NCBI GenBank assembly: GCA_031285565.1 | Contig: JAITVY010000046.1 | Coordinates: 1-64,000 of the forward strand | Direction: 5' to 3' | Length of the DNA: 64,000 nucleotides | Source of the DNA: Tannerella sp. | GTDB taxonomy: Bacteria; Bacteroidota; Bacteroidia; Bacteroidales; Tannerellaceae | Shown here: positions 2,995 to 25,636 of the stretch, in pieces | Layout: each line of letters begins with the position of its first letter | Numbering within the stretch: position 1 is the first letter of the stretch | The notes under the pieces: generated by a model | Seen by the model: the letters and a program-made list of their open reading frames with translations, nothing else | What the model was told of the DNA's origin: nothing | The model's database searches: none | Translations under genes and position numbers: made by a program

Positions 2995-3117
2995 CGTTAT
3001 TCCGATCGAAAAGAGGAATCGCATAAAAACAAATCGTCATTTCGACCAACGGGAGAAATCGCATATGTACTGATAAAATTGTGATTATACGATCTCTCAC
3101 ATTCGTTCGATATGACG
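2995..3117. repeat. BIME-like palindromic repeat, copy 1 (three half-units)
   Basis: cgttattccgatcgaaaagaggaatcgcat, cgtcatttcgaccaacgggagaaatcgcat and inverted atacgatctctcacattcgttcgatatgacg. Confidence 0.75.
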
Positions 3118-3138
3118 AAAATAAATAAAAATATAACC

Positions 3139-5443
3139 ATGAAACAACTACTAATTGTTATTTGCTGTATGTCCTTTATAGGTTGCACAACTGAAAAAAG
3201 CGACCGGGAACGGATTTCATTGAATGAGGACTGGAAATTCTTTTTGACGAAAGAAGCAATGGATGCTTCTGCCCCGGGATTTGAAGATACCGGATGGCGT
3301 ACGCTAAACCTGCCGCACGATTGGAGTATAGAAGCTGATTTCAACCGGGATAATCCGGCGGGAACAGGCGGTGGAGCGCTTCCCGGAGGGTCTGGATGGT
3401 ACCGGAAGCATTTTAAGATGCCCGAATCGGATAAAGGAAAAATGATATATATCGATTTCGATGGTGTATACCGTAATAGTACGGTCTGGATAAACGGTCA
3501 TCAGCTAGGATTCCGTCCGAACGGATATATTTCTTTTCGTTATGATATGACTCCTTACCTGAACTATGGAGAAGAAGGGAACGTACTGGTTGTTCATGCT
3601 GATAACTCACAGCAACCCAATTCCCGTTGGTATTCCGGATCGGGTATTTACCGGAATGTTTGGATGGTTAAAACACATCCGGTGCATGTAGACTTATGGG
3701 GAACATTTGTTACCACTCCGGTAGTGACCAATGAAAAAGCTACAGTAGTAGTGGAAACAACGGTAAAGAATAATAAAGAAGATGCTGCTATCAAAGTTAT
3801 AAGCAGGATTGTAGATGCATCCGGTAAAATGGTATCGGAAGGGCAGCAGGAAATTACGGTTTCCGGCAATGAGACACAACATCTGACTGAAACCCTGGAA
3901 GTCCTTTCGCCTCAACGGTGGACGTTTAATGATCCCTACCTTTATACGTTGGTTACTGAAATCATCAGTGATAATAAAGTAGTTGATACATATAAAACAC
4001 CTTTTGGTATCCGTACGTTGCGCTGGGAACCGTCTACCGGTTTTTACCTGAATGATGAACCTACCAAGATATTAGGGGTTTGCATGCATCATGACCTGGG
4101 ATGTCTGGGAGTTGCTATTAATGACCGGGCGCTTACCCGTCAGGTTGAGATATTGAAAGAGATGGGTGTGAACTCAATCCGTACCAGCCATAATCCGCCT
4201 GCTCCCGAATTGCTGGAGATTTGCGACCGTATGGGTATTCTGGTACAGGATGAGTCGTACGATATGTGGAGGCGTCGTAAATCGCGCTACGATTATGCAC
4301 AGTATTTTGATGAATGGCATGAAAAAGACCTTACCGACCAGATCCTCCGCGACCGGAATCATGCTTCGGTATTTATGTGGAGCATCGGCAATGAAGTGCT
4401 GGAACAGTGGACACATGCACATGCCGATACACTTAGTTTACAGCAGGCAAACCTGATCCTGAATGCAGGGCACCATATTGATCCAGACTTATTGAAAGAT
4501 ACAACCATGAGTGTACAATCATTGATTACACATACACTGGCAAATATTGTACGTAAATTGGATAAAACACGCGTGGTTACAGCCGGATGTAACGAAGTGA
4601 GTCCTGGCAATCACTTGTTCCGTTCCGGAGCATTGGATGTATATGGTTTTAATTACCATCATCAGGATTTCGCACCGTTTCCGGAGGTCTTTCCGGGTAA
4701 AATCAGGTCTGATGTCAAGAGGTATCTATGAGATGCCGTCCGACCAGATCTATATCCGTCCGGATCGGTGGGATATACCGTTTGACCTGCCCGAACATAT
4801 TTGTTCTGCTTATGATAATTGCCATGTGCCCTGGGGATCTACACATGAGACGAGTTGGTTGGAAGTGAAGAAATATCCTCATGTTTCGGGATTGTATGTA
4901 TGGACCGGTTTTGATTATCTGGGTGAACCGACTCCTTATGGCTGGCCAAGCCGGAGTAGCTTCTTTGGAATTATAGACCTTGCCGGTATACCTAAAGATG
5001 TATACTATATGTATCAAAGTGAGTGGACGGATAAGCCGGTTCTTCATGTATTTCCGCATTGGAACTGGATAGAAGGGCAGGATGTGGATATCTGGGCTTA
5101 TTATAATCAGGCGGATGAAGTTGAACTGTTTCTGAATGGGGAAAGTATGGGCAAGAAAAGTAAAAATGATTCAACATTGCATGTTTGCTGGCGACTTAAA
5201 TATGTACCTGGAACCCTGCAGGTTGTTTCCAGAAAGAACGGAAATGAAGTATTGACCCGTACTATCCATACTGCCGGAGCAGCGGCACGGATTGAGTTAA
5301 TTCCTGACCGCGCGACAATTACGGCTGATGGTAGAGATTTATCGTTTGTTACAGTTGAAGTGAAAGATAAGGATGGAAACCTGGTCCCTGATGCAGCTAA
5401 TCTGATTCGTTTTTCCGTTGAAGGAGAAGGATTCATAGCCTGT
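3139..5443 (+). pseudogene. GH2 beta-galactosidase (DUF4982-type C-terminal region), disrupted: internal deletion near 4701/4703 and 3' end lost near 5443
   Basis: ORFs 3112-4731 and 4637-5458 are consecutive parts of one GH2 protein in different frames (…FPEVFPGK | SGLMSRGIYEMPSDQIYIRP…). Start at 3139 (MKQLLIVICCMSFIGC, lipobox) is more likely than 3112. Acid/base motif SIGNEVLEQW is present; the K-F-I-A-x-E-T segment expected after FPGK is missing. Confidence 0.85.
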
Positions 5444-6041
5444 ACGGACAAATTTTGACGAAGAAAAGCTGGGATTCGAATGGCAGTACCTTCGGAATCC
5501 TATCCGCGAAAATTATTCTTTAACAGAGAAAAAGGGTTCTTTCCGTATTACAGCTTCTCCTTATACGCTGGATGAAACCGCATCAGTTTCTTTTATCGGA
5601 CGCCGGCAAACCGAGCATGATTTTGAAGCAGCAACTCATCTTACTTTTAACCCGTCTGGTGCGGATGAGGAAGCCGGTATGACATTGATTCAGAATAATA
5701 CACATCATTACGACCTGTTAATGAAGAAGAAAGACGGACAAAACGTTGTCCAGTTGCGTGTTCGCGTAGGTTCACTATCGTATATTGCTGCCGAACAGGT
5801 TGTAAACGGCGAAGAATTGCTATTAAAGATTACCGGTACACCTTTGGAATATGCATTCCATGTAGGGAATTCCAAAGATAATACGTATACCGAATTAGGA
5901 AAACTGGATACGCGATATTTGAGTACGGAAGTAGCCGGTGGGTTTACAGGTGTTATGATTGGATTATATGCTTCTTCCAACGGTAAGCCAGGAAATGCAA
6001 AAGCGTATTATGACTGGTTTGAATACAGTAGTAAGAAGTAG
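5444..6041 (+). pseudogene. C-terminal concanavalin-A-like domain remnant of a GH43 beta-xylosidase/arabinofuranosidase
   Basis: Frame 3 reads NFDEEKLGFEWQYLRNPIRENYSLTEKKGSFRITASPYTLDETASVSFIGRRQTEHDFEAATHL…YYDWFEYSSKK, typical of the GH43 C-terminal domain. No start codon, signal peptide or beta-propeller catalytic domain precedes it. ORF 5679-6041 is only its internal-Met part. Confidence 0.8.
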
Positions 6042-6096
6042 AAAGGAGAAATCAATTGAAAATTGAAAGTGGAAAATTGAAAATGAAAGCACTATT

Positions 6097-6180
6097 CGTC
6101 ATCTCGAACAAATGTGAGAGATCGCATTAGCACTATATTATTGGTGGCTATGCGATTCCTCACTATGTTCGGAATGACGG
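6097..6180. repeat. BIME-like palindromic repeat, copy 2
   Basis: cgtcatctcgaacaaatgtgagagatcgcat … atgcgattcctcactatgttcggaatgacgg, inverted arms. Confidence 0.8.
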
Positions 6181-6250: not shown

Positions 6251-8773
6251 ATGAAAAAACAAAAACTTTTATTCCCTATTATAGGATGTTTATTCTTTTT
6301 ATCTCAATCACTTTTCTCCCAGAAGTTTGAGCTGTCATCAGCCGGATATTTCCAGGACAGGGGCGTTGACGTAATGGCATTTGACGATATATATCCCGAA
6401 GGTCACCAGGGAGGTGTGTCATTGATCATGCATGGTAACCGGGTGGCAACGAATGGTGATATTCGCTTGGAACCTACACCCGGACAATGGCAGCCTGTAC
6501 CCAAGCAACGGGAACGTAAACTAGATAATGCAACCAATACGATTACGGCATGGTTGAGCTATCCGGACACATCCCGGCACATGACTGGCTTTAACCCGAT
6601 GATCTATCCTGATCTTGTATTAGACTATGTGGTAAATGTAAAAGGGGAAGGGAAATCTGTTATTGTTACTGTCGATCTGGATCGTCCTATACCGGCTGAA
6701 TTTGTAGGAAAGGTGGGATTCAATCTGGAATTATTTCCGGGCGCTTTGTTCGGAAAGCCATGGATTATGGATGGTTTGACCGGAATATTTCCCCAACAAC
6801 CGAATGGTCCTACTTTATCGGAAAAGGCAAACATTAGTCATACCGGTAATTTTAATCCGGAAGGAAAAGCGAGTGTAGAACAATTAACCGGGCATGGGTA
6901 TAGCCCAATAATAGCAGATGATATTGTCGCAGAACCTTATGCGGTTGGAAAACGTTTTACGGTTCGTCCGGATGATCCGTATAACCGTTTTACAATTGTA
7001 TCGGAGGGTGCCGACCTGAAACTTTTTGACGGACGGATGAATCATAATAACGGTTGGTTCGTGGTACGGAGCGAAGTTCCTGCAGGAGCTACAAAAGGTG
7101 CTATCAAATGGGTGATCACACCCAATGTAGTTGAGGATTGGATCTATATGCCGGTTATACAGACCTCGCAGTTAGGATATCATCCTGATCAGCCCAAAGT
7201 GGCTGTGATTGAATTGGATAAACGGGATAACCGGAAAGAAACCCCACAATTGTATAAGATTACAGACGATGGGGATAAAGCGATGACAACCGGAACGAAG
7301 AGTGAATGGGGACAGTTTCTGCGCTATAATTACCTGAAATTTGATTTCACGGATGTAAAGGAAGAAGGTCTTTACCAGGTGAAGTACGGAGATTCGTTCT
7401 CGTCTGTTTTCCGTATTGCCAAAGATGTATACGACCGGGGAGCCTGGCAACCGGTACTGGAATATTTTCTTCCGGTACAAATGTGCCATATGCGTATAAA
7501 TGAGAAATACCGGGTCTGGCATGGCTGCTGCCATATGGATGATGCGCGTATGGCTCCGGTAAATTTTAACCATATTGACGGTTATGAACAAGGACCTTCA
7601 ACTCTGACAAAATATCAGCCGGGAGATGTTGTTCCGGGTTTAAATATCGGAGGTTGGCATGATGCGGGTGATTTTGATTTACGGGTGGAATCGCAGGCTG
7701 GTGAGACTTATATTCTGGCATTAGCGTATGAAGCATTTAAAGTGGATTATGATGCAACAGCGATAGATCAACATACCCGTGTTACTGAAATTCATCAACC
7801 GGATGGTAAAGCGGATTTATTGCAACAGGTGGAAAACGGTGCATTGACGGTAGTGGGTGCTTACCGGGCATTGGGACGGCTATACAGGGGAATTATTTGT
7901 AATGACCTCCGACAGTATGTTTTGCTGGGTGATGGTATGACTATGACGGATAATGTAACCGGTAATGAGGATGATCGTTGGGTGTTTACCGAAGATAATC
8001 CAAACCGGGAGCTGACTACGGCAGCCCATCTTGCCGCTGCTTCGCGTGTGCTCAAAGGTTTCAACGATACATTGAGCGTACAATTGTTAGAAGCAGCCCG
8101 TGAGATATACAAAGTAACGAATGTGACAGACCATGCTAAATCGGCTAAAATACAGGCAGCAGTGGAATTATATCTTGCAACAGGAGAGAAAGAGTATAAG
8201 GATTATCTGCTTTCGGAATCAAAGTTTATTACTGAAAATATAGACCGTGTAGGCTGGTTTATTGGTCGGGCAGATAAGAAAATGAATGACCGGAAATTCT
8301 CACAGGCTGTTCATAAAGCCATGTTAGGATTGCGTAATAAATTGGAAGAGCAAGGAGCCGAAACACCTTATGGTATTCCTTACCGTCCGCATATCTGGGG
8401 AGCCGGCTGGGATATCCAGGCTTTCGGATACCGTCATTATTTCCTGCATACGGCTTATCCGGAGATCTTTGGTGCTGAATTTATTTATAATGCATTGAAT
8501 TTTATTTTAGGTTGCCATCCGGGTTCGAATACATCTTCCTTTGCTTCCGGAATAGGTGCTAAGTCGGCAACAGTTGGTTACGGACTGAACCGGGCTGACT
8601 GGTCATATATACCCGGAGGTGTAGTTTCCGGTACGGCTTTAATCCGTCCGGATTTCCCTGAACTGTTGGAATTTCCTTTCTTATGGCAACAGGTGGAGTA
8701 TGTAATGGGTGGCGGTTCGTCACATTATATGTTTCTGGTATTGGCAGCACAGCAATTATTATCGGGCAAATAA
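6251..8773 (+). CDS. GH9 family glycoside hydrolase with ~300-aa N-terminal extension
   Basis: Signal peptide; Ig-like GH9 N-domain motif (TSQLGYHPDQPKVAVIE); catalytic GGWHDAGDFD; C-terminal WQQVEYVMGGGSSHYMFLVLAA. Confidence 0.85.
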   Translation: MKKQKLLFPIIGCLFFLSQSLFSQKFELSSAGYFQDRGVDVMAFDDIYPEGHQGGVSLIMHGNRVATNGDIRLEPTPGQWQPVPKQRERKLDNATNTITAWLSYPDTSRHMTGFNPMIYPDLVLDYVVNVKGEGKSVIVTVDLDRPIPAEFVGKVGFNLELFPGALFGKPWIMDGLTGIFPQQPNGPTLSEKANISHTGNFNPEGKASVEQLTGHGYSPIIADDIVAEPYAVGKRFTVRPDDPYNRFTIVSEGADLKLFDGRMNHNNGWFVVRSEVPAGATKGAIKWVITPNVVEDWIYMPVIQTSQLGYHPDQPKVAVIELDKRDNRKETPQLYKITDDGDKAMTTGTKSEWGQFLRYNYLKFDFTDVKEEGLYQVKYGDSFSSVFRIAKDVYDRGAWQPVLEYFLPVQMCHMRINEKYRVWHGCCHMDDARMAPVNFNHIDGYEQGPSTLTKYQPGDVVPGLNIGGWHDAGDFDLRVESQAGETYILALAYEAFKVDYDATAIDQHTRVTEIHQPDGKADLLQQVENGALTVVGAYRALGRLYRGIICNDLRQYVLLGDGMTMTDNVTGNEDDRWVFTEDNPNRELTTAAHLAAASRVLKGFNDTLSVQLLEAAREIYKVTNVTDHAKSAKIQAAVELYLATGEKEYKDYLLSESKFITENIDRVGWFIGRADKKMNDRKFSQAVHKAMLGLRNKLEEQGAETPYGIPYRPHIWGAGWDIQAFGYRHYFLHTAYPEIFGAEFIYNALNFILGCHPGSNTSSFASGIGAKSATVGYGLNRADWSYIPGGVVSGTALIRPDFPELLEFPFLWQQVEYVMGGGSSHYMFLVLAAQQLLSGK

Positions 8774-25507: not shown

Positions 25508-25521
25508 GTTTTATGCATTGT

Positions 25522-25603
25522 CGTCATCTCGAATGAAATGAGAGATCTCATTAGCACAATGTTATTGTGACTATGCGATTTCTCCCGTTGGTCGAAATGA
25601 CGG
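25522..25603. repeat. BIME-like palindromic repeat, copy 4
   Basis: cgtcatctcgaatgaaatgagagatctcat … atgcgatttctcccgttggtcgaaatgacgg, inverted arms. Confidence 0.75.
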
Positions 25604-25636
25604 TTGTTTTTTGGCTTTTGAGACACATTTAATGTT

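Follow-up and report, generated by a model that had tools for sequence, protein, structure and literature searches.

Gene content and genomic setting of the locus

The window analyzed in this study is a 64,000-nucleotide stretch of a Tannerella sp. draft assembly (contig C71) that spans 5.0 Mb in 118 contigs, is 83% complete, and has the character of a gut-type Bacteroidales genome. Near its start, the + strand carries, in order, an intact GH31 gene, a GH2 gene split over two reading frames, a GH43 gene of which the tail is left, and a GH9-type gene that is likewise intact. The features are listed below, with domains named according to Pfam.

138 to 2957, + strand: intact GH31 neighbor, which accompanies the GH2 ortholog in most relatives (Pfam)
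3142 to 4701, + strand: 5' part of the GH2 gene, with a lipoprotein-like leader, two beta-sandwich domains, and the start of the TIM barrel (Glyco_hydro_2_N, Glyco_hydro_2, Glyco_hydro_2_C)
4701 to 4703, + strand: site of the 23-bp deletion, where the xLIVSEST nucleophile segment is gone and the frame is shifted (24 nt in close relatives versus 1 nt)
4703 to 5451, + strand: 3' portion of GH2, read in a different frame, with the barrel remainder, DUF4982, and the first half of Glyco_hydro2_C5 (1-53 of 103; Pfam, with DNA homology to 5451)
5437 to 5451, + strand: junction zone AGCC[T]GTACGGACAA, which fits both parent genes except at T5441 and looks like what is left of a short, imperfect direct repeat
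5439 to 6041, + strand: GH43 remnant, a complete concanavalin-like domain with its natural stop but no start codon or propeller (GH43_C2)
6251 to 8773, + strand: intact GH9-type neighbor, which adjoins GH2 without an intervening GH43 in Parabacteroides sp. PH5-46 (Pfam)

The best matches to the GH2 gene are Parabacteroides and Tannerellaceae records. The relative closest to this locus, Parabacteroides sp. PH5-46, shows the order GH31-GH2-GH9 and lacks the GH43. The Tannerella genome itself holds at least three other GH2 genes of the same architecture and several further GH43 genes. The large ORFs neighboring the broken GH2/GH43 pair are intact, and no Rfam families were found in the window.

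A dispersed intergenic repeat of ~85 bp occurs at 3034-3119, 6095-6179, and 25509-25611. It has palindromic ends (CGTCATNTCGA...ATCGCATA...TATGCGATTNCTC...TTCGNAATGACG), and dozens of partial copies are scattered throughout the genome. The first two of these copies border the broken GH2-GH43 locus and are inverted relative to each other, and the matching gaps in PH5-46 measure only ~10-40 bases. A search of a plasmid collection with this repeat gave no match.

The GH2 reading frame and its nucleophile segment

The GH2 frame reads ...FPEVFPGK up to position 4701, is interrupted by a single extra base (A at 4702), and resumes from 4703 with SGLMSRGIYEMPSD (SGLMSRG), exactly where an earlier note on this DNA had placed a frame jump (4701/4703). 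Past the lesion, the 5' ORF runs on in the wrong frame until it meets a stop at 4731. All 10 of the closest orthologs checked, which include PH5-46 and P. faecis, have precisely 24 nt between these two points, whereas the window has 1 nt. Therefore, 23 bp are missing. The 24 nt encode VLIVSEST, KLIVSEST, NFIVSEST, KLHISEST, and similar segments. Thus the earlier note was right that relatives carry about eight additional residues at this site, one of them a Glu, but the KFIAxET-like motif that it anticipated is in fact xLIVSEST. An in-frame Glu occupies the deleted position in 79 of 80 public GH2 loci, and the single exception (L104) reads out of frame.

When an intact ortholog is aligned with the beta-galactosidase BgaD-D (PDB 8q2h and 4ypj), the Glu of the deleted segment matches E532 and the Glu of WSIGNE matches E447. 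Mutagenesis of BgaD-D has identified E532 as the nucleophile and E447 as the acid/base residue (PMC11858185). Therefore, the window copy keeps the acid/base Glu, located in the 5' part, and has lost the nucleophile. A functional enzyme would carry both catalytic Glu residues in one reading frame; here, WSIGNE is present, the nucleophile is deleted, and the frame is broken. GH2-domain homology nevertheless extends on both flanks of the lesion, as is characteristic of a decayed gene. Elsewhere in the family, the GH2 ortholog of Tannerellaceae MAG MO.1_2 (L051, about 5824) has a premature stop directly after WSIGNEVLE.

The transition from GH2 to GH43

Downstream of the GH2 gene, P0003 (5445-6038) matches Pfam GH43_C2 over positions 1-203 of 203 (E 6e-55). 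A functional GH43 is defined by a five-bladed propeller with catalytic residues (Pfam Glyco_hydro_43), whereas only GH43_C2 is present here. As the earlier note had stated, both the start and the propeller of the GH43 gene are absent, and a TAG lies in frame just before the remnant (5436-5438). Elsewhere in the family, genomes carry close homologs (65-72% identity) in which an in-frame propeller precedes this domain.

Two of the close GH43 relatives are themselves broken. The copy in G085 (L204 5938-7507) has a 26-bp tandem duplication and another frame shift, and that in G092 (L206 7390-8868) has several frame shifts and a small deletion. These breakages are independent of the one in the window and consist of different lesions. 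Together with the premature stop in MO.1_2, they make loss in this gene set look repeated, albeit in draft genomes. Perhaps the family has shed this GH43 subgroup repeatedly and independently because its members underwent a common ecological shift or because the enzyme was selected against, and not by random decay, although we regard this as rather unlikely.

At the junction, the GH2-type sequence ends with the residues VEGEGFIA-C-TD (IAGTDNG in relatives), and the GH43 frame begins with PV-RTNFDEEKLGFEW (PVRTDFD... in relatives). DNA alignments with intact GH2 genes end at 5451 for most relatives, whereas the match to the GH43 gene of G073 extends no further upstream than 5438. The switch from GH2 to GH43 described in the earlier note is therefore real, but the two homologies overlap over about 5437-5451, and this zone should replace the single position of about 5443 given there. 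The GH2 relatives use the codons GCC GGN ACN GAY AAY GG, and the GH43 relatives use codons like CCN GTN CGN ACN GAY TTY GAY. The window reads GCC TGT ACG GAC AAA TTT TGAC, which is compatible with both parents except at T5441. This base fits GH43 only, as G is invariant at that position in the GH2 relatives. Thus, the parent genes have in common an imperfect stretch, AGCC[G/T]GTACGGACAA, of up to ~15 bp with one certain mismatch. The true parental repeat may have been somewhat shorter, because the lost GH2 allele could have differed at third codon positions.

Similarity between the two parental breakpoints was evaluated by directly comparing 16 intact GH2 genes with 11 GH43 genes, with the window left out. 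The true breakpoint register gave 5.96 expected matches of 14, compared with a mean of 3.53 (SD 0.68), which places it in the top 0.16% of registers. The breakpoints of intact relatives thus resemble each other, and this supports deletion between short direct repeats, a feature that the earlier note had proposed looking for. We conclude from these comparisons that the second deletion probably arose in this manner. In bacterial genomes, small variable segments have been proposed to arise mainly by illegitimate recombination (PMC2884548). Judged from intact relatives, this deletion spans ~55 GH2 residues, a spacer, and ~330 GH43 residues, or roughly 1.2 kb. Intact relatives thereby support the earlier proposal of two deletions, the second of which cost GH2 its C-terminus and GH43 its catalytic domain. 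The frame jump and the second junction together are far beyond chance.

We searched for the lost parts elsewhere in the same assembly. Both the absent propeller of GH43 and the absent tail of GH2 gave only distant matches (best 37% and 39% identity, respectively), all within other open genes, and translocation was rejected on this basis. No GH2-GH43 fusion occurs in the 89 loci with this GH2, and the closest relatives of the GH43 have no GH2 within 1.5 kb on either side. On the basis of these loci and flanks, a natural fusion family with the same junction was rejected, a result that leaves the two-deletion reading of the earlier note standing.

Nor does a functional product seem plausible. Because the sequences of GH43_C2 and of most GH2 domains are preserved, one could imagine a GH2-GH43_C2 chimera that is rescued by frameshifting and serves in binding. 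However, three frames would be needed, the second GH2 frame ends at a stop at 5458, ahead of the GH43_C2 domain, and the TAG described above precedes the GH43 frame. Considering also that relatives lack such a fusion and that the nucleophile is lost, we view this explanation as extremely improbable.

Because no relative shows an undeleted GH2-GH43 tandem, and none of the 89 loci has a GH43_C2 relative adjoining this GH2, we infer the ancestral gene order from the junction alone. The arrangement in PH5-46 means that the GH43 was either gained here or lost there, and an already truncated GH43, or its C-terminal module alone, might have come in behind GH2 and fused with it. Homology to the GH43 relatives, however, spans the linker (PVRTNFD), and the breakpoint is common to the GH2 tail, such that one deletion in a full tandem fits better. 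Arrival of a truncated gene is thus improbable in our judgment.

Finally, the genes might be intact in the cell if the segments were skipped by the assembler, either through simple error or through a mixture of strains. The fragmented and incomplete state of the draft favors this possibility, as does the lack of any other decay in the surviving sequence. On the other hand, there are two separate, clean lesions within one gene pair, adjoining large ORFs are intact, and the lost pieces are on no other contig. The junction repeat is imperfect and, at ~15 bp, shorter than the k-mers usually employed in assembly. Moreover, losses of 23 bp and ~1.2 kb do not resemble homopolymer slips, as the earlier note had argued for both lesions. 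We therefore assign such an artefact only a small likelihood.

Age, proposed history, and relation to known systems

Synonymous sites are saturated between the window and PH5-46 (pS about 0.77), so we set dN/dS aside and instead counted unusual residues at outgroup-invariant sites. The GH2 gene of the window has 4 such residues versus 5 in the intact PH5-46 gene. The neighboring genes behave similarly (window versus PH5-46: 17 versus 25 for GH31, 16 versus 15 for GH9). The lack of an excess of unusual substitutions in the surviving GH2 indicates that the decay is recent. By this measure the gene was normally constrained until recently, although assembly errors would give the same pattern.

Overall, we consider it very likely that the locus is a recent double pseudogene, in which a GH2/GH43 tandem was hit by a 23-bp and a ~1.2-kb deletion. 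The starting point would have been a beta-galactosidase-type GH2 and an arabinofuranosidase/xylosidase-type GH43 in tandem between GH31 and GH9. Through the 23-bp deletion, GH2 would have lost both its nucleophile segment and its continuous reading frame. The ~1.2-kb deletion would have eliminated the end of GH2, the spacer, and the catalytic domain of GH43; its endpoints probably lay in two short, imperfectly matching direct repeats, one within the C-terminal domain of GH2 and the other within the linker of GH43. Slippage or illegitimate recombination is the presumed mechanism. At most, the locus might yield a truncated, catalytically dead GH2 fragment of ~530 residues, with a GH43_C2 tail that lacks a start. 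Selection was presumably relaxed by redundant GH2 and GH43 genes, and the loss may have been tolerated thanks to the further copies in the genome.

This is ordinary recent gene decay with an unusually readable breakpoint. It alters no general idea, but provides a clean recent case of shrinkage in carbohydrate-degrading gene clusters in which the breakpoint is still legible. In addition, automatic annotation could falsely assign GH2 and GH43 activities to the locus. Our literature search on pseudogenes in polysaccharide utilization loci found nothing directly relevant.

Three known systems provide useful comparisons. First, the intact ortholog aligns over 800 residues with BgaD-D, a GH2 beta-galactosidase from Bacillus circulans. 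Compared with this enzyme, the copy in the window has a frameshift, no nucleophile segment, and only half of the C5 domain. Second, the alpha-L-arabinofuranosidases BoGH43A and BoGH43B (PDB 5jow and 5joz) have a C-terminal domain homologous to the GH43_C2 of the window, which is full length, whereas their catalytic propeller is missing here. Third, bacterial pseudogenes formed by short-repeat deletion (illegitimate recombination) likewise show loss between short imperfect direct repeats. Nothing essential distinguishes the locus from such pseudogenes, except that here two neighboring genes were both hit at a single place.
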